Source of the DNA: a virus
Strand: one strand, 5' to 3'
DNA length: 35,503 nucleotides
Virus record (IMG/VR): IMGVR_UViG_3300028794_000016
Location: 1 to 35,503 of that record
The notes beneath the pieces were generated by a model. It did not search any database and was not told the origin of the DNA. It saw nothing but the letters and a program-made list of their open reading frames with translations. Positions 8,880 to 28,308 of this stretch are shown one piece after another. The translations under genes and the position numbers were made by a program. Numbering within the stretch: position 1 is the stretch's first letter; each line of letters starts with the position of its first letter.

Positions 8880-8908
8880 TTGACAATGTAGTCTCCGTGT
8901 GATAGAAT
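8880..8908 (+). promoter_or_regulatory. Consensus promoter with inverted repeat around the -10
   Basis: TTGACA (8880-8885), 17-nt spacer, TAGAAT (8903-8908), extended -10 TGA. The -10 is enclosed by a perfect 7-bp inverted repeat, TCTCCGT (8892-8898) and ACGGAGA (8909-8915). It drives the gene at 8945, giving a leader of about 30 nt. The palindrome could be an operator. Confidence 0.85.
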
Positions 8909-8944
8909 ACGGAGAGTTCAGAAAACGAAGTGAAGGAGATGCAC

Positions 8945-9307
8945 ATGGGTGCATGGGATGCGTTCGAGAGCACTGCCCAGGACAATCAGTTCATCCAGCT
9001 CAAGGAGGATGGTGATGAGTTCCAGGGCGTTGTTGAGTCCATCGAGCCGCACACCATCCCTGCGGGCACATTCGATCACCAGAAGGACGACCTCATCGTT
9101 CCTCGCGTGACGTTTGTGGGTGGCAAGATTTATGACGCTACGACCACTGTGGTTCGCAATGCGTTCATCGAGTTGGCTCCTGAGCCTGGTACGGAGATCC
9201 GTATCAAGCGCGTGGGCAAGCCGAAGGGCAAGACCTACATCGTGTACACGGTGAAGGAAATCAAGGATGGCGCTGAGCGTGGCGCCGAGACATCTGAGGA
9301 CTTCTAA
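8945..9307 (+). CDS. Small OB-like protein, possible ssDNA-binding (120 aa)
   Basis: Starts MGAWDAFESTAQDNQFIQL. AAGGAG lies 6 nt before ATG 8945; an in-frame start five codons earlier would place the ribosome site inside the gene. It is beta-rich with alternating charge (GDEFQGVVESIEPHTIP; TEIRIKRVGKPKGKTYIVYT) and an acidic tail ending TSEDF. A basic beta core plus a short acidic C-terminus is how small phage ssDNA-binding proteins look, and it sits between nuclease and tRNA genes, but no family motif proves this. It has its own strong promoter, suggesting high expression. Confidence 0.7.
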   Translation: MGAWDAFESTAQDNQFIQLKEDGDEFQGVVESIEPHTIPAGTFDHQKDDLIVPRVTFVGGKIYDATTTVVRNAFIELAPEPGTEIRIKRVGKPKGKTYIVYTVKEIKDGAERGAETSEDF

Positions 9308-9316
9308 ACCTCAGAC

Positions 9317-9350
9317 TTGACACCGCGCCCCAAGGGTGTATACTTGGGGC
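9317..9350 (+). promoter_or_regulatory. Promoter of tRNA cluster 1, with palindrome over the -10
   Basis: TTGACA (9317-9322), 16-nt spacer, TATACT (9339-9344). A perfect 8-bp inverted repeat, GCCCCAAG (9327-9334) and CTTGGGGC (9343-9350), spans the -10, four bases before the first tRNA. Same geometry as the promoter at 8880 but with different arm sequence. The hairpin could also serve as a weak terminator for the gene before it. Confidence 0.75.
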
Positions 9351-9354
9351 ACAA

Positions 9355-9427
9355 GGGCCTCTATCCCAACGGCAGAGGAAACAGGCTTAGACCCTGTACA
9401 GTGCGAGTTCGAATCTCGCGGGGCTCA
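9355..9427 (+). tRNA. tRNA-Leu (anticodon TAG), class-I shape
   Basis: Acceptor GGGCCTC/GGGGCTC pairs fully with two G-U wobbles; anticodon stem ACAGG/CCTGT with loop CTTAGAC; T arm GCGAG-TTCGAAT-CTCGC; A73. The variable region is only 5 nt, whereas leucine tRNAs normally have a long variable arm. First tRNA of cluster 1; no CCA encoded. Confidence 0.75.
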
Positions 9428-9428
9428 C

Positions 9429-9474
9429 AAGGACACAGCGCTGTCACAACGCAATAGTGCACAGCTAAGTCCTT
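9429..9474 (+). repeat. Spacer-closing stem between tRNA-Leu genes
   Basis: AAGGAC (9429-9434) pairs with GTCCTT (9469-9474), spanning almost exactly the spacer between the two tRNAs; inside it GCTGT/ACAGC can also pair. One of a series of unique-sequence spacer stems. Confidence 0.5.
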
Positions 9475-9476
9475 AA

Positions 9477-9561
9477 GCACGAGTGGCTGGAATTGGCAGA
9501 CGCGCCGCACTCAAAATGCGGTGTCCGAAAGGGCGTATGGGTTCGAGTCCCATCTTGTGTA
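9477..9561 (+). tRNA. tRNA-Leu (anticodon CAA)
   Basis: Class II tRNA with a long variable arm. Acceptor GCACGAG/CTTGTGT, anticodon stem CCGCA/TGCGG with loop CTCAAAA, T arm ATGGG-TTCGAGT-CCCAT, A73. No encoded CCA (TAC follows). Confidence 0.92.
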
Positions 9562-9611
9562 CGCACATCTACGGATGTAGCATGTTGATGTTCCTTTCTG
9601 TGTGTTGTACA

Positions 9612-9638
9612 GCACACTCCTTGTGGTGGGGAGTGTGC
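9612..9638 (+). repeat. Hairpin between tRNA-Leu and tRNA-Phe
   Basis: Perfect 9-bp inverted repeat GCACACTCC/GGAGTGTGC with a 9-nt loop, ending 2 nt before tRNA-Phe. No T tract follows, so a processing or insulating role is more likely than termination. The spacer holds no convincing gene. Confidence 0.65.
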
Positions 9639-9640
9639 AT

Positions 9641-9712
9641 CTTCGAATAGCTCAGATGGTAGAGCGCTCGGTTGAAGCCCGAGGCGCGGCGGTTCGATTC
9701 CGTCTTCGAAGG
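9641..9712 (+). tRNA. tRNA-Phe (anticodon GAA)
   Basis: Acceptor CTTCGAA/TTCGAAG is fully paired; D arm GCTC/GAGC; anticodon stem CTCGG/CCGAG with loop TTGAAGC; T arm GGCGG-TTCGATT-CCGTC. C1-G72 is unusual for tRNA-Phe. No CCA encoded. Confidence 0.92.
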
Positions 9713-9716
9713 CCGT

Positions 9717-9789
9717 CCCAAGCGTCCTGGCAGGCAGGCCGTGGCTGTAAACCACTCGCCGCGAGGTTCGATTCCTCGGCGTGGGACCA
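9717..9789 (+). tRNA. tRNA-Tyr (anticodon GTA), short variable arm
   Basis: Anticodon loop CTGTAAA on a GTGG/CCAC stem, T arm CGAGG-TTCGATT-CCTCG, acceptor CCCAAGC/GCGTGGG (one mismatch, C1-G72), A73 and encoded CCA. Variable region 5 nt, very short D loop. Bacterial tRNA-Tyr normally has a long variable arm and G1-C72, so this one is atypical. The acceptor ends could also be drawn one or two bases outward (GTCCCA/TGGGAC). Confidence 0.75.
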
Positions 9790-9790
9790 A

Positions 9791-9862
9791 GGGGTATAGA
9801 TGTTGATGGCGGCATATCTGACTTCCAATCAGAGTGGGCGAGTTCGAGACTCGCATACCTCA
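9791..9862 (+). tRNA. tRNA-Gly (anticodon TCC)
   Basis: Acceptor GGGGTAT/ATACCTC is fully paired with one wobble; anticodon stem TCTGA/TCAGA with loop CTTCCAA; T arm GCGAG-TTCGAGA-CTCGC; A73. Only one base separates it from the CCA of tRNA-Tyr. Confidence 0.9.
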
Positions 9863-9866
9863 CGTC

Positions 9867-9901
9867 GATGCACTATCGGGCTCTTAAACCATGGGTGCAT
9901 C
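9867..9901 (+). repeat. Spacer hairpin before tRNA-Arg
   Basis: GATGCAC (9867-9873) and GTGCATC (9895-9901) form a perfect 7-bp stem that spans the spacer between tRNA-Gly and tRNA-Arg. Confidence 0.55.
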
Positions 9902-9906
9902 TTCAT

Positions 9907-9982
9907 ACCTTTGTAGCTCAGTGGACAGAGCGCCTCTCCCCTAAAGAGGGCGTCGTAGGTTCGAATCCTACCAAGGGTACCA
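9907..9982 (+). tRNA. tRNA-Arg (anticodon CCT) with C33
   Basis: Acceptor ACCTTTG/CAAGGGT, D arm GCTC/GAGC, anticodon stem CCTCT/AGAGG with loop CCCCTAA, T arm GTAGG-TTCGAAT-CCTAC, A73 and encoded CCA. Strict numbering gives anticodon CCT and a C at position 33, where U is nearly universal. Confidence 0.88.
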
Positions 9983-9986
9983 GGTT

Positions 9987-10023
9987 TGTGCGCCTACCTG
10001 ACCGCAATGCAAAAGTGCGCACA
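9987..10023 (+). repeat. Spacer hairpin between tRNA-Arg genes
   Basis: TGTGCGC (9987-9993) and GCGCACA (10017-10023) form a perfect 7-bp stem bridging the spacer, ending 3 nt before the next tRNA. Confidence 0.55.
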
Positions 10024-10026
10024 CAT

Positions 10027-10101
10027 ATCTCTATAGCTCAGCCTGGATAGAGCGCTTGGCTACGAACCAAGAGGTCGGGGGTTCGAATCCCTCTAGGGAT
10101 A
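10027..10101 (+). tRNA. tRNA-Arg (anticodon ACG)
   Basis: Acceptor ATCTCTA/TAGGGAT, D arm GCTC/GAGC, anticodon stem CTTGG/CCAAG with loop CTACGAA, T arm GGGGG-TTCGAAT-CCCTC, A73. Reading CGC/CGA would need A34-to-inosine editing by the host. Confidence 0.92.
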
Positions 10102-10103
10102 CT

Positions 10104-10165
10104 GTGCGGTTAGTCGACCACCGCGCCCAGGATCTGAAGGTGTGCAAGCCTAGGGAACACCGCAC
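10104..10165 (+). ncRNA. Candidate structured RNA in the tRNA cluster
   Basis: The 93-nt spacer between tRNA-Arg and tRNA-Gln has no tRNA T-loop but can fold into nested helices. The outer stem is GTGCGGT (10104-10110) with ACCGCAC (10159-10165). The inner stem is CCCAGG (10126-10131) with CCTAGGG (10149-10155, one bulged A). It is the largest of the spacer structures. It could be a degenerate tRNA-like relic, a small RNA or a processing signal. No coding potential seen. Confidence 0.35.
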
Positions 10166-10194
10166 CGGACACCTTGGAAATCAAGTCGACGTAT

Positions 10195-10265
10195 TCCTGG
10201 ATCGTCTAATGGCAGGATGCCTGACTCTGAATCAGGTGGTCGTGGTTCGAGTCCATGTCCGGGAG
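10195..10265 (+). tRNA. tRNA-Gln (anticodon CTG)
   Basis: Acceptor TCCTGGA/TCCGGGA (T1-A72, as usual for tRNA-Gln), anticodon stem CCTGA/TCAGG with loop CTCTGAA, T arm CGTGG-TTCGAGT-CCATG, G73. Confidence 0.92.
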
Positions 10266-10268
10266 CGC

Positions 10269-10331
10269 GGCTGTCATGCGTGACTACAGCCATTGAGGAT
10301 AGCCAAACCCTCTGAGATTAAACGTTCACGC
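10269..10331 (+). repeat. Spacer hairpins before tRNA-Ser(TGA)
   Basis: Two alternative perfect stems: GGCTGT (10269-10274) with ACAGCC (10286-10291), and GCGTGA (10278-10283) with TCACGC (10326-10331). They overlap, so only one can form at a time. Confidence 0.45.
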
Positions 10332-10334
10332 TAT

Positions 10335-10417
10335 GGAGTCACGCATTTGGCGTGCTTATCGGTCTTGAAAACCGTGATGTCCTTCGGGATGTGGGGGTTC
10401 GAATCCCTCTGGCTCCG
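10335..10417 (+). tRNA. tRNA-Ser (anticodon TGA)
   Basis: Class II tRNA. Acceptor GGAGTCA/TGGCTCC, anticodon stem TCGGT/ACCGT with loop CTTGAAA, long variable arm with GTCC/GGAT-type pairing, T arm GGGGG-TTCGAAT-CCCTC, G73. Its 3' end is two bases before the ATG of the next gene. Confidence 0.93.
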
Positions 10418-10418
10418 C

Positions 10419-10628
10419 ATGTTGAAGACATTTGTACTACAGAGGAACGTGGACATCTCCGGAGTGTCAGGCACTGGCATTGTAGCTGATGGTGTGCTCT
10501 GGCAGGACGGGACGTGCACAATCAGGTGGCGTGGCGAGCATCCTAGCATCGCGCATTGGCAGGATATTGAGCACGCGAAGCAGATTCACGGGCATGGAGG
10601 GCATACACTGTTCGTGTTCGATGAGTAA
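10419..10628 (+). CDS. Conserved actinophage small protein (69 aa)
   Basis: Starts MLKTFVLQRNVDISGVSGTG; central GVLWQDGTCTIRWRG; C-terminal IHGHGGHTLFVFDE. The SGTG-x-VADGV, IRWRG and HGHGGHT pattern recurs in many actinophage early regions, but its role is unknown. The ATG begins two bases after the tRNA-Ser discriminator base and no Shine-Dalgarno exists, because the upstream sequence is the tRNA itself. tRNA 3' processing would therefore leave a near-leaderless mRNA. The frame stays open upstream through the tRNA, but that part is not coding. Confidence 0.8.
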   Translation: MLKTFVLQRNVDISGVSGTGIVADGVLWQDGTCTIRWRGEHPSIAHWQDIEHAKQIHGHGGHTLFVFDE

Positions 10629-10634
10629 CACAAT

Positions 10635-10719
10635 GGATTGTTGACAGAGTGGCAATGTGCTGGCTTGCTAAGCCAAGGCTTACCTTAGGGTAACTGGGGT
10701 TCGACTCCCTGACTTTCCG
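10635..10719 (+). tRNA. tRNA-Ser (anticodon GCT)
   Basis: Class II tRNA with a long variable arm. Anticodon stem TGGC/GCCA with loop TTGCTAA, D stem ACA/TGT, T arm TGGGG-TTCGACT-CCCTG, G73. The acceptor GGATTGT/ACTTTCC has two adjacent T-T mismatches in its middle (4-69, 5-68), which is unusual. Confidence 0.85.
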
Positions 10720-10721
10720 CG

Positions 10722-10750
10722 TTGCGCTCCATCAAATCGTGTGCTATGCT
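10722..10750 (+). promoter_or_regulatory. Promoter for a leaderless gene
   Basis: TTGCGC (10722-10727), 17-nt spacer, TATGCT (10745-10750). The -10 is followed by six bases and then ATG at 10757, so transcription would start on or near the ATG. The block GTGTGCTAnnCTT...GCATG recurs at 11942-11962. Confidence 0.65.
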
Positions 10751-10756
10751 TCATGC

Positions 10757-10906
10757 ATGGGACACAAGATGGAGTACAAGAAGCCCGAATGTCCGCACCT
10801 ACGAACGAAGCGCCGTAAGGGCAAGGATGCCCAAGGCAATCTCATCTGGAAAGTGTACTGCAAAGACTGTGGTGACCTCATTGCTTTGGAGGATCGCTCC
10901 GAATAA
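10757..10906 (+). CDS. Small Cys/His protein, probably leaderless (49 aa)
   Basis: Basic protein MGHKMEYKKPECPHLRTKRR... with CPH near residues 12-14 and VYCKDCGDL near 33-41. This is a possible C-x2-H...C-x2-C zinc ribbon. There is no Shine-Dalgarno, but a promoter -10 lies exactly 6 nt upstream of the ATG, the arrangement of a leaderless actinobacterial gene. ATG at 10769 is an alternative start. The TAA ends on the base just before tRNA-Cys begins, so it is tightly packed into the tRNA cluster. Function unknown. Confidence 0.7.
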   Translation: MGHKMEYKKPECPHLRTKRRKGKDAQGNLIWKVYCKDCGDLIALEDRSE

Positions 10907-10981
10907 CGCTTGCTGACCGAGTGGCGAGGTGCTACCCTGCAAAGGTAGATGAGCGGGGTTCGATTCCCCGGCGAGTGTCCA
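10907..10981 (+). tRNA. tRNA-Cys (anticodon GCA)
   Basis: Acceptor CGCTTGC/GCGAGTG, anticodon stem CTACC/GGTAG with loop CTGCAAA, T arm CGGGG-TTCGATT-CCCCG, T73 (the known cysteine identity base) and encoded CCA. C1-G72 is unusual for tRNA-Cys. Confidence 0.92.
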
Positions 10982-11010
10982 ACTTAAAATGTGATGATGT
11001 GAAGGGAAAC

Positions 11011-11265
11011 ATGGACATCACGGCGTGGGTACCGTGGTTGTTGGCCGCAGGGAATGTGTCATCAGCGTTCTGCACAGGCAAAGGTCTGAACGCAGGATGG
11101 GTGTTGTTGGTGTTGACACAGCTAGCTTTCATCCTGTATGCTGTGCTTACAGGTCAGCCGGGATTCTTGCTGCAAAACGTTGCAATGATCGCCATCGGAG
11201 TTTATAACTTCGTGAAGTGGCGCAAGCGAAGGAAGGGGAATGAAGATGGAAGATTGGAACGATAG
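11011..11265 (+). CDS. Small membrane protein, PnuC-like helices (84 aa)
   Basis: Begins MDITAWVPWLLAAGNVSSAF. Three hydrophobic segments are visible: residues about 6-22, WVLLVLTQLAFILYAVLTG about 29-47, and FLLQNVAMIAIGVYNFVKW about 52-70, with a charged tail RKRRKGNEDG. The middle and last segments resemble those of phage PnuC-type or small inner-membrane proteins, but it is far shorter than a true nicotinamide riboside transporter. GAAGGG lies about 5 nt before the ATG. The tail overlaps the next gene by about 20 nt. Confidence 0.7.
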   Translation: MDITAWVPWLLAAGNVSSAFCTGKGLNAGWVLLVLTQLAFILYAVLTGQPGFLLQNVAMIAIGVYNFVKWRKRRKGNEDGRLER

Positions 11266-11488
11266 GTTCTTGCAGTTCCTAGGGGATTATTTGCGTGGCA
11301 CACGCCCTGAGCTTGACGTTGTCACGGTGACGTCAGTATTTCAGGATGCTGGTGACGCGTTCTCAGGTTGCGAGACCTGTGGATGGGGCTCGGATGATCC
11401 GCAGGTTGACATCTCGTATGTTGACGGCGCAGGTGATTCATGTAGTGTCAGCATTGACGGTAACTTGGCGAACATCTTTGGTTACTGA
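11246..11488 (+). CDS. Hypothetical acidic protein (80 aa)
   Basis: Begins MEDWNDRFLQFLGDYLRG; middle DAFSGCETCGWGSDDP; then a beta-rich stretch VDISYVDGAGDSCSV. The GCETCG pair is characteristic of a small actinophage protein family without known function. GGAAGG is 9 nt before ATG 11246; an ATG two codons earlier is possible. It overlaps the membrane-protein gene by 20 nt. A weak CCC-ttc-GGG hairpin plus TTTT (about 11500-11513) follows just before tRNA-Lys. Confidence 0.75.
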   Translation: MEDWNDRFLQFLGDYLRGTRPELDVVTVTSVFQDAGDAFSGCETCGWGSDDPQVDISYVDGAGDSCSVSIDGNLANIFGY

Positions 11489-11513
11489 CAACTAAATAGC
11501 CCTTCGGGGTTTT

Positions 11514-11584
11514 GCCTCCGTAGCTGAGGGGATTAGCACCTGACTCTTAATCAGGGGACGTAGGTTCGATTCCTACCGGGGGTA
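11514..11584 (+). tRNA. tRNA-Lys (anticodon CTT)
   Basis: Acceptor GCCTCCG/CGGGGGT (G1-T72 wobble), anticodon stem CCTGA/TCAGG with loop CTCTTAA, T arm GTAGG-TTCGATT-CCTAC, A73. Confidence 0.93.
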
Positions 11585-11585
11585 C

Positions 11586-11681
11586 GTGGAAATCATAGTT
11601 GCCGGTAAAATCCTGAGCATGAACCGGACGGCGATGGAGTTCGCGGCTGACGACTTGCCTAAAGTCGTAATGCCTCTGTAG
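11586..11681 (+). CDS. Candidate micro-ORF between tRNA-Lys and tRNA-Thr (31 aa)
   Basis: GTG start one base after the tRNA-Lys discriminator; reads VEIIVAGKILSMNRTAMEFA and ends LPKVVMPL, stopping inside tRNA-Thr. It has no Shine-Dalgarno. Spacing from the tRNA end (one base, a C) is the same as for the supported gene at 10419. Its last third also forms the hairpin at 11650-11668. It could be chance. Confidence 0.3.
   Translation: MEIIVAGKILSMNRTAMEFAADDLPKVVMPL
11650..11668 (+). repeat. Spacer hairpin before tRNA-Thr
   Basis: ACGACTT (11650-11656) and AAGTCGT (11662-11668) form a perfect 7-bp stem with a 5-nt loop, ending 3 nt before tRNA-Thr. Confidence 0.6.
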
Positions 11682-11745
11682 CTCAATTTGGTAGAGCGCC
11701 TCTCTTGTAAAGAGGATGTTGCGGGTTCGATTCCTGTCATTGGCT
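11672..11745 (+). tRNA. tRNA-Thr (anticodon TGT)
   Basis: D arm GCTC/GAGC, anticodon stem CCTCT/AGAGG with loop CTTGTAA, T arm GCGGG-TTCGATT-CCTGT. The acceptor GCCTCTG/CATTGGC has mismatches at positions 4-69 and 5-68, the same positions as in tRNA-Ser(GCT). T73. Last tRNA of cluster 1. Confidence 0.88.
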
Positions 11746-11749
11746 CAAG

Positions 11750-11780
11750 ATACCCCGTGTCACGTCGTGATGCGGGGTAT
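11750..11780 (+). terminator. Hairpin/terminator after tRNA cluster 1
   Basis: ATACCCCG (11750-11757) pairs with CGGGGTAT (11773-11780), and the loop contains a second TCAC/GTGA stem. It is followed by TGTCATTT, a weak T tract. Probably ends most transcription from the tRNA cluster. Confidence 0.65.
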
Positions 11781-11801
11781 TGTCATTTGCAAAGGAGCGC
11801 A

Positions 11802-11942
11802 ATGAAGCGTCACACATGGAAGCACGTAAGTGATCCTACGTGCGGCAAGCACATCAGCAAGCACTGTAGGTATTGTGGCGCGTGCCCTGGCAAGCCCCAC
11901 GAAAACTTTTGCCGAATCGTGGGTAGACACCGCAAGGCATAG
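11802..11942 (+). CDS. Cys/His-rich small protein (46 aa)
   Basis: Basic: MKRHTWKHVSDPTCGKH, then HCRYCGACPGKPHENFC, then RHRKA. Four to five cysteines and several histidines suggest a zinc-bound microdomain. AAAGGAG lies 5 nt before the ATG. It belongs to the group of short zinc-ribbon-type proteins dotted through the early region (6998, 7102, 10757, 12149). Function unknown. Confidence 0.72.
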   Translation: MKRHTWKHVSDPTCGKHISKHCRYCGACPGKPHENFCRIVGRHRKA

Positions 11943-11953
11943 TGTGCTACACT
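11924..11953 (+). promoter_or_regulatory. Promoter for a leaderless gene
   Basis: TAGACA (11924-11929), 18-nt spacer, TACACT (11948-11953), then exactly six bases to ATG at 11960. The core GTGTGCTACACTTTCAGCATG resembles the block in front of the gene at 10757. The promoter lies within the 3' end of the preceding gene. Confidence 0.65.
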
Positions 11954-11959
11954 TTCAGC

Positions 11960-12145
11960 ATGGCAAAGAACGAGAAGCACACAGTGCAGTGGGTGAACTG
12001 GAACGGCAAGGGTGGCAAGAAGACCTTCTCAAGCGGTGTGGGACGTGCTAAGGTTGAGGCGTTCCGGCGAAAGAAGGCTGCTGAAGCTTCCGTTGCCGAT
12101 TGTTGGATTGCATGGGCTTCGGCCCCAAAGCGAAAGGGCGTGTAA
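11960..12145 (+). CDS. Hypothetical basic protein, probably leaderless (61 aa)
   Basis: Starts MAKNEKHTVQWVNWNGKGGK, then basic RAKVEAFRRKKAAEAS, ending PKRKGV. No Shine-Dalgarno; the upstream -10 box is 6 nt from the ATG. A later GKGGKK-rich segment and arginine/lysine clusters suggest nucleic-acid contact, but no known family is recognised. The next gene starts 3 nt after the stop. Confidence 0.7.
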   Translation: MAKNEKHTVQWVNWNGKGGKKTFSSGVGRAKVEAFRRKKAAEASVADCWIAWASAPKRKGV

Positions 12146-13279: not shown

Positions 13280-13430
13280 GAATGATGTGGAGCGCCTGTA
13301 TGAGCGCGTGGAATTGGTGGTAGGTTCGTTCCACGGGGCTTCAGGGGTTGATCAGGAACGTTTGCGCGATGCGGCTGACTATTTCCTGATCGCTTACGTG
13401 AAGTTGCGGCGCGCGGCAGGACTTGAATAG
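13248..13430 (+). CDS. Hypothetical helical protein (60 aa)
   Basis: Starts MAKIDKKNLYENDVERLYER; predicted mostly helical, ending KLRRAAGLE. GGAAGG is 7 nt before ATG 13248; ATG 13242 and TTG 13233 are alternatives. It is the last rightward gene before the bidirectional terminator and overlaps the membrane-protein gene. No family recognised. Confidence 0.68.
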   Translation: MAKIDKKNLYENDVERLYERVELVVGSFHGASGVDQERLRDAADYFLIAYVKLRRAAGLE

Positions 13431-13467
13431 CAAATGGCCCACACTCAAATTGAGTGTGGGCCATTTG
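13431..13467. terminator. Bidirectional terminator between early and late operons
   Basis: Perfect 18-bp inverted repeat (13431-13448 and 13450-13467), with CAAAT at the outside on the left and ATTTG on the right, so each strand ends in a short T run. Located exactly between the convergent rightward and leftward operons. Confidence 0.9.
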
Positions 13468-13475
13468 TGTTGTCG

Positions 13476-27462: not shown

Positions 27463-28308
27463 TTACGCTACATTACGTGTCAGGGTTGTCTCATCCTGCT
27501 GAGCGTTCTTGCTGTAAATTAGTTGACGCATTTCGTTCAGGATCATGCGCGTATTGCGCTTGCTCTCATTTCGACGCAAATCCTTCGCGACATTCTTACG
27601 TGCCTTGTCATAGATCTTGAAGGCTGCGTTCTCTTGTTCCTGCGTAGGATAATTGTCGTACTTATAGATTGGGACGGCGACACATGTGCATCCTGGATGC
27701 CACTTGTTCATCATTTCGTTGATCTTGTCGGTGTCCTGATCCAAGATCAACTTCTCAAGCTTATCCGTGCCGTGCTCCCACCCTGCCGTCTTCGCGGAAG
27801 TGTGGTACACTGGGCCACGAGAGATCATCATGGTGCAGAACGCGCAGGTCGGAGGCTTAGGATCGAAGCGCGCGATGCCACGAATTGGGAGGTTATCATC
27901 GCGAACACCCTGAATGATGGTGCGTCGAGCGCCATCCTCCACAGTCTGCTCTACCCTGTGGACGGCTTCCTCGATCAGCGCATCACTGCTGAAGCCCTTT
28001 TGCGCGTGCTCGAAAAGTGGGAGCATCTGCTGCCTGAACCACTTCTCGGGGTAGTGATCATCCTTGAAGATGTCCTGAGGGGCTACCGAAGGGACCTGCG
28101 CAGCGCGGTTATCATCATAGAAAATGCGCGCCAAATCTGTCGCTTCATCTCGGTATGGCTTCACGACACGGTAGGTTACATGGATGAACGCGTCCCAATC
28201 ACGAACGCTCATCGCGCCTGTGAGGAACTGCTGAAAGATATGTACGAGCGCGGCAATCATCCTCGTTAGGATGTTGCCCTTGCGCCTCGCGTATTCATTC
28301 AGGTCCAT
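27463..28308 (-). CDS. MuF-like capsid maturation/minor head protein (281 aa)
   Basis: Helical N-terminal half, then PPTCAFCTMMISRGPVYHTS and WHPGCTCVAVPIYKYDNY: the paired Cys-x2-Cys and H-x-G-C-x-C motifs of actinophage MuF-type proteins, which sit at the portal and enter the procapsid. The family is associated with structural capsid maturation. Located between LamG genes and the scaffold. Start is ATG 28308 with a weak AGGAT site some 13 nt upstream. Confidence 0.85.
   Translation of the reverse strand: MDLNEYARRKGNILTRMIAALVHIFQQFLTGAMSVRDWDAFIHVTYRVVKPYRDEATDLARIFYDDNRAAQVPSVAPQDIFKDDHYPEKWFRQQMLPLFEHAQKGFSSDALIEEAVHRVEQTVEDGARRTIIQGVRDDNLPIRGIARFDPKPPTCAFCTMMISRGPVYHTSAKTAGWEHGTDKLEKLILDQDTDKINEMMNKWHPGCTCVAVPIYKYDNYPTQEQENAAFKIYDKARKNVAKDLRRNESKRNTRMILNEMRQLIYSKNAQQDETTLTRNVA

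Follow-up and report, generated by a model that had tools for sequence, protein, structure and literature searches.

Two small genes within and after a viral tRNA array carry promoter blocks predicted to direct leaderless expression

The window, that is, the whole stretch of DNA analysed here, was a virus record of 35.5 kb whose host is probably an actinobacterium. Its large terminase was up to 56% identical to the terminases of cluster-A-type and other actinobacteriophages, and a search for broad DNA relatives of the window returned matches in the tRNA genes only. The plus strand carried twelve tRNA genes (9355-11746), and a further ten, encoded by the minus strand, lay around 30-31 kb. Two small genes, designated gene 1 and gene 2, were found inside and after the plus-strand array, respectively (Table 1). 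Family searches with both proteins gave no match, no protein relatives of either were detected among typed phages, and those detected in IMG/VR came from a near relative only. The product of the small gene upstream of gene 2 gave a sub-threshold match to the Pfam double zinc ribbon.

Table 1. Features on the plus strand in and around the tRNA array; "relative" denotes the one close relative described in the text.
Feature	Position	Strand	Remarks
Promoter with leader, TTGACA-17-TAGAAT, TG extension	8880..8908	+	Precedes the gene at 8945, which has an AAGGAG ribosome site; conserved in the relative
Probable tRNA array promoter, TTGACA-16-TATACT	9317..9344	+	Ends 10 bases before the first tRNA gene (tRNA-Leu, 9355); unchanged in the relative
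-35-like box of promoter 1, TTGCGC	10722..10727	+	Weak; starts 2 bases after the tRNA-Ser end; unchanged in the relative while adjoining bases changed
Extended -10 of promoter 1, GTGTGC-TATGCT	10739..10750	+	GTGTGC-TAGACT in the relative
Gene 1, 49 aa, predicted leaderless	10757..10906	+	Between tRNA-Ser and tRNA-Cys; CPH...CKDC zinc-ribbon-like pattern (by eye)
Small gene upstream of gene 2	11802..11942	+	Ordinary AAAGGAG ribosome site; contains the -35-like box of promoter 2 near its end; TAG stop overlapping GTG 11942
-35-like box of promoter 2, TAGACA	11924..11929	+	Lies within the 3' end of the upstream small gene
Extended -10 of promoter 2, GTGTGC-TACACT	11942..11953	+	GTGTGC-TATGCT in the relative
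Gene 2, 61 aa, basic, predicted leaderless	11960..12145	+	Conservation boundary at the ATG against the relative

Each of the two genes was preceded by the same kind of block. The sequence GTGTGCTANNCTTNNNGCATG occurred at 10739-10759 and 11942-11962, its only two exact matches in the window, and the two 21-mers were identical at 16 of 21 positions. As the original prediction had stated, a -10 box ended exactly six bases before each ATG. This box was of the TGN-extended TANNNT type in both blocks: TATGCT (10745-10750) was followed by TCATGC and ATG 10757, and TACACT (11948-11953) by TTCAGC and ATG 11960, with the first T of TANNNT lying 12 bases before the ATG in both cases. The -35-like boxes announced in that prediction were recovered at distances of 17 and 18 bases from the -10; TAGACA is a good match to TTGACA (5/6), TTGCGC agrees with it at only three of the six positions, and the pair scores 9/12. 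The absence of a Shine-Dalgarno sequence was likewise verified, since none of the AGG/GAG type was found within 20 bases before either ATG; such a sequence, of 4-8 bases, preceded the majority of the other genes called in the window.

The full block GTGTGCTANNCTTNNNGCATG was not matched in any of 100 dinucleotide shuffles of the window, a test that is post hoc because the pattern was derived from the two sites themselves. The simpler pattern TGNTANNNT-N6-ATG was present three times against 0.89 expected, and three occurrences were reached in 5 of 100 shuffles. The third of these sites (7841, minus strand), antisense to a coding gene, was discarded. A TAGTTT located six bases before the ATG of the gene at 27463-28308, which carries no TGN extension, was also set aside. 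Plain TANNNT, without the TG, was too common for any spacing peak to emerge, both in the window and in the Rhodococcus phage Grayson (see below).

The search for the block in relatives, proposed in the original prediction, detected both copies in the one close relative that was found (IMGVR_UViG_3300046616_000126, about 91% identical over the region). This relative kept TG-N-TA-NNN-T, the six-base spacing and the ATG in both blocks, with 4 of 18 upstream block bases changed in block 1 and 5 of 17 in block 2. Within the blocks, every change fell either at a degenerate position of the -10 motif (Table 1) or in the six-base spacer that precedes the ATG; by our estimate from the change counts, which concern one relative, the five key -10 bases would be kept in both blocks together with a chance of about 3%. 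After its ATG, gene 1 showed seven base changes and no amino acid change, and in the relative an in-frame TAG stood between the GTG of the block and the ATG, so that only the ATG can start gene 1 there. In gene 2, 12 of 17 bases were identical just before the ATG and 183 of 186 from the ATG on (Fisher p ~1e-4), while the amino acid differences were 3/6 before it and 1/62 from it on (p = 0.0015). This jump in base and amino acid conservation makes ATG 11960, and not GTG 11942, the well-supported start of gene 2. Among distant relatives by terminase (the closest typed phages, cluster A and others), TGNTANNNT-N6-ATG was almost absent; hence, the layout is not a habit of this wider group.

The same 16 fixed bases were searched in 2.9 million viral contigs, and the sequence families were grouped by eye. 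With the six-base spacing, 27 loci in about 18 families were obtained, compared with 5 loci (2 families) for a spacing of eight bases and 1 locus (1 family) for four. A control in which ATG was replaced by ATC gave 17 loci; this high raw count was a concern that shrank when the loci were reduced to 6 families, most loci lying inside long coding frames. The ATG opened an ORF of at least 60 amino acids at 22 of the 30 viral sites of the six-base set, in unrelated proteins, and such ORFs were opened at 47 of 65 sites in bacterial species genomes. The bacterial sites spanned Rokubacteria, Actinomycetota (including antitoxin relatives), Chloroflexi, Spirochaetes, Saccharibacteria and others. No excess of the layout over a reversed-pattern control was observed in G002 (L104).

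Furthermore, a peak at six bases was found for the distance between TGNTANNNT and ATG in Rhodococcus phage Grayson (MH153812); 10 long ORFs were counted there, compared with about 1.7 for each of the other distances. In the portions at 22-38 kb and 94-112 kb, eight sites lay exactly six bases before annotated starts (gp59, 66, lysin A, major tail protein, 73, 76, 179 and 225), and a ninth was one codon away from the start of gp203. The Grayson genes with TGNTANNNT six bases upstream are likely leaderless genes of an isolated phage. Grayson and the window virus share the placement of this motif before gene starts, and one Grayson site lies just after a tRNA gene; unlike the window virus, Grayson is a different, larger phage in which the layout is also present at structural and lysis genes. 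The fact that gene starts of unrelated viruses (Grayson included) and of bacteria are enriched in the layout at this one spacing points to the block as a general signature of predicted leaderless starts.

Additionally, in four actinobacterial genomes (L058, L070, L071 and L072) the exact block preceded a Phd/antitoxin-like gene (MSEIASRELRNNTRGLLRRVAGGED; family assigned by eye), which would be in line with leaderless toxin-antitoxin genes. In a viral contig (IMGVR_UViG_3300010389_000007, 10001-22000), seven genes within about 8 kb each began with a near-identical TGNTATGCTTACAGCATG, and sequence further upstream was common to several of the seven. The same stretch held six tRNA genes, and short matches to T4-like Synechococcus phages gave the contig a cyanophage-like character. 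Its promoter-ATG cassettes look like a multiplied unit.

Leaderless expression of genes 1 and 2 was considered the best reading of these data, with a probability of roughly 80%. Its support comes from the conserved -10 box, spacing and ATG, the conservation boundary at the ATG, the in-frame stop in the relative and the spacing-specific enrichment in other genomes. The motif and its spacing, the lack of a Shine-Dalgarno sequence, their conservation and the real genes opening at both ATGs can be read directly at the locus. As for function, we infer promoter activity, with each block acting as an ordinary promoter for the main RNA polymerase holoenzyme of the host, formed by the TGN-extended TANNNT -10 and a -35 located 17-18 bases upstream. 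The transcription start would coincide with the first base of the ATG or lie one or two bases from it, and the mRNA would then have no leader, the ribosome starting on the 5'-terminal AUG without Shine-Dalgarno pairing. Two small phage proteins, one encoded inside and one after a tRNA array that is probably driven from upstream promoters, would thereby be expressed from a start of their own, and transcripts of those upstream promoters may also run through both genes.

The original prediction had gone further, proposing a dedicated leaderless module. The leaderless part of that proposal gained support from the evidence just listed; the dedicated module was not supported. The TG-extended promoter at 8880-8908, whose extended -10 (GTGTGATAGAAT at 8897) is similar to the two blocks, serves a leadered gene with an AAGGAG ribosome site, so the promoter form is not reserved for leaderless genes, and the block itself appears to be a general signature.

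The existence of those upstream promoters suggests another possibility: the blocks could be promoters while the genes are translated mainly from longer, tRNA-processed array transcripts through leaders without a Shine-Dalgarno sequence, which for gene 1 would be the 36 bases after tRNA-Ser. The strong same-strand promoters at 8880 and 9317 would suit such transcripts, as would the stretch from there to 13430, in which no strong terminator-like site was detected. Nevertheless, the leader would offer no ribosome site, the spacing from -10 to ATG is conserved, and promoter 1 takes up the whole 36-base gap from tRNA-Ser to gene 1 and leaves room for nothing else, all of which makes this explanation improbable. 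A start of gene 2, and by analogy of gene 1, at the in-frame GTG of the block (GTGTG), coupled to the preceding gene (TAGTG) through a weak AAGG and with an incidental likeness to a -10 box, was judged somewhat less probable still. GTG 11942 overlaps the preceding TAG stop, the AAGG lies 4 bases before it, and a simple gene caller chose this GTG for gene 2 (gene 1 was missed). However, the in-frame TAG in gene 1 of the relative and the concentration of amino acid changes before the ATG of gene 2 argue against it, at 10739 there is neither a ribosome site nor a preceding gene, and the GTG is part of the promoter string, being found also in unrelated genomes where a stop comes after it.

Chance would come closest to explaining the short pattern, with its 0.89 expected occurrences in the window and the shuffles that reached three. 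It fares poorly with the full block, absent from all the shuffles, and with the facts that both copies precede conserved genes and are kept in the relative and that the enrichment in other genomes is specific to one spacing. A resemblance devoid of promoter function was, hence, regarded as the least probable of these alternatives, and a very improbable one.

Leaderless expression, the preferred reading, would place genes 1 and 2 in a known class. Leaderless bacterial genes are marked by a TANNNT motif upstream of the start codon, at a distance of about 10-12 bases or, counted from its first T, about 12 (PMC3160421), and the same -10-adjacent arrangement has been tested in Deinococcus (PMC12340547). 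The position of TANNNT, the absence of a Shine-Dalgarno sequence and the true ATG start assign both genes to this -10-adjacent class, with a transcription start that is predicted. As in the TANNNT class of Actinobacteria and Deinococcus-Thermus (PMC3160421, PMC12340547), the first T lies 12 bases before an ATG without a Shine-Dalgarno sequence; unlike that class, the genes belong to a phage, their -10 carries a TGN extension and leads into CTT...GC ahead of the ATG, and a -35-like box is present.

The statement in the original prediction that leaderless mRNAs are common in actinobacteria agrees with the literature (PMC3160421, PMC3898074, PMC4633059). In Mycobacterium tuberculosis, leaderless genes make up 26% of those with a primary start site, and the TGN-extended promoters (TGNTANNNT) show the highest activity (PMC3898074); in mycobacteria, RTG (ATG or GTG) at +1 is necessary and sufficient for leaderless initiation (PMC4633059). 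The window resembles the mycobacterial leaderless transcriptome (PMC3898074, PMC4633059) in its TANNNT -10, the RTG at the expected +1 and the prominence of small proteins. It differs in that only 7% of the mycobacterial TANNNT promoters are TGN-extended, and the transcript ends measured there are predicted from sequence here.

Among phages, a leaderless gene of lambda is cI, expressed from promoter PRM. Genes 1 and 2 would be similar to it as phage genes whose promoter puts +1 at the AUG, a position predicted in our case; they differ from that coliphage repressor gene in being a pair of small unnamed genes that belong to a tRNA array. Leaderless initiation in lambda phage has been described (PMC3160421).

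Gene callers that look for Shine-Dalgarno sequences misplace or miss leaderless starts, as occurred here with GTG 11942 and gene 1, and the six-base rule yields exact predicted 5' ends and N-termini. To leaderless expression, mapped so far chiefly in chromosomes of bacteria, genes 1 and 2 would contribute a well-conserved example from a phage. A broader and rather doubtful idea, offered tentatively, is that the promoter-plus-ATG cassette is a recurrent phage device that turns a small gene into a self-sufficient unit of expression. Needing no leader, ribosome site or outside transcript, such a cassette could be inserted at various places, tRNA arrays among them, and the window (two cassettes), the cyanophage-like contig (seven) and Grayson would be separately arisen cases.

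Several other elements were observed in and around the array. An 18-pair stem-loop (AAATGGCCCACACTCAAATTGAGTGTGGGCCATTT, 13430-13468) between converging gene sets is probably a bidirectional terminator. Inverted repeats spanned the -10 boxes of both leadered promoters, at 8891-8916 (TCTCCGT..ACGGAGA) and 9326-9351 (GCCCCAAG..CTTGGGGC). In the relative, the counterpart of the first had changed arms that were apparently still complementary (CCCGTAT..ATACGGG), and for this reason the repeats may be operators. The tRNA gene at 9907-9982, identical in the relative, was called by ARAGORN as tRNA-Pyl (cta); a cloverleaf drawn by eye had the loop CCCCTAA with anticodon CCT (Arg), and given this anticodon the gene should not be read as an amber suppressor without a check. 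Finally, a stretch (10419-10633) that follows tRNA-Ser(TGA) directly and contains a small ORF is missing in the relative, in which only 3 bases separate the two tRNA-Ser genes.
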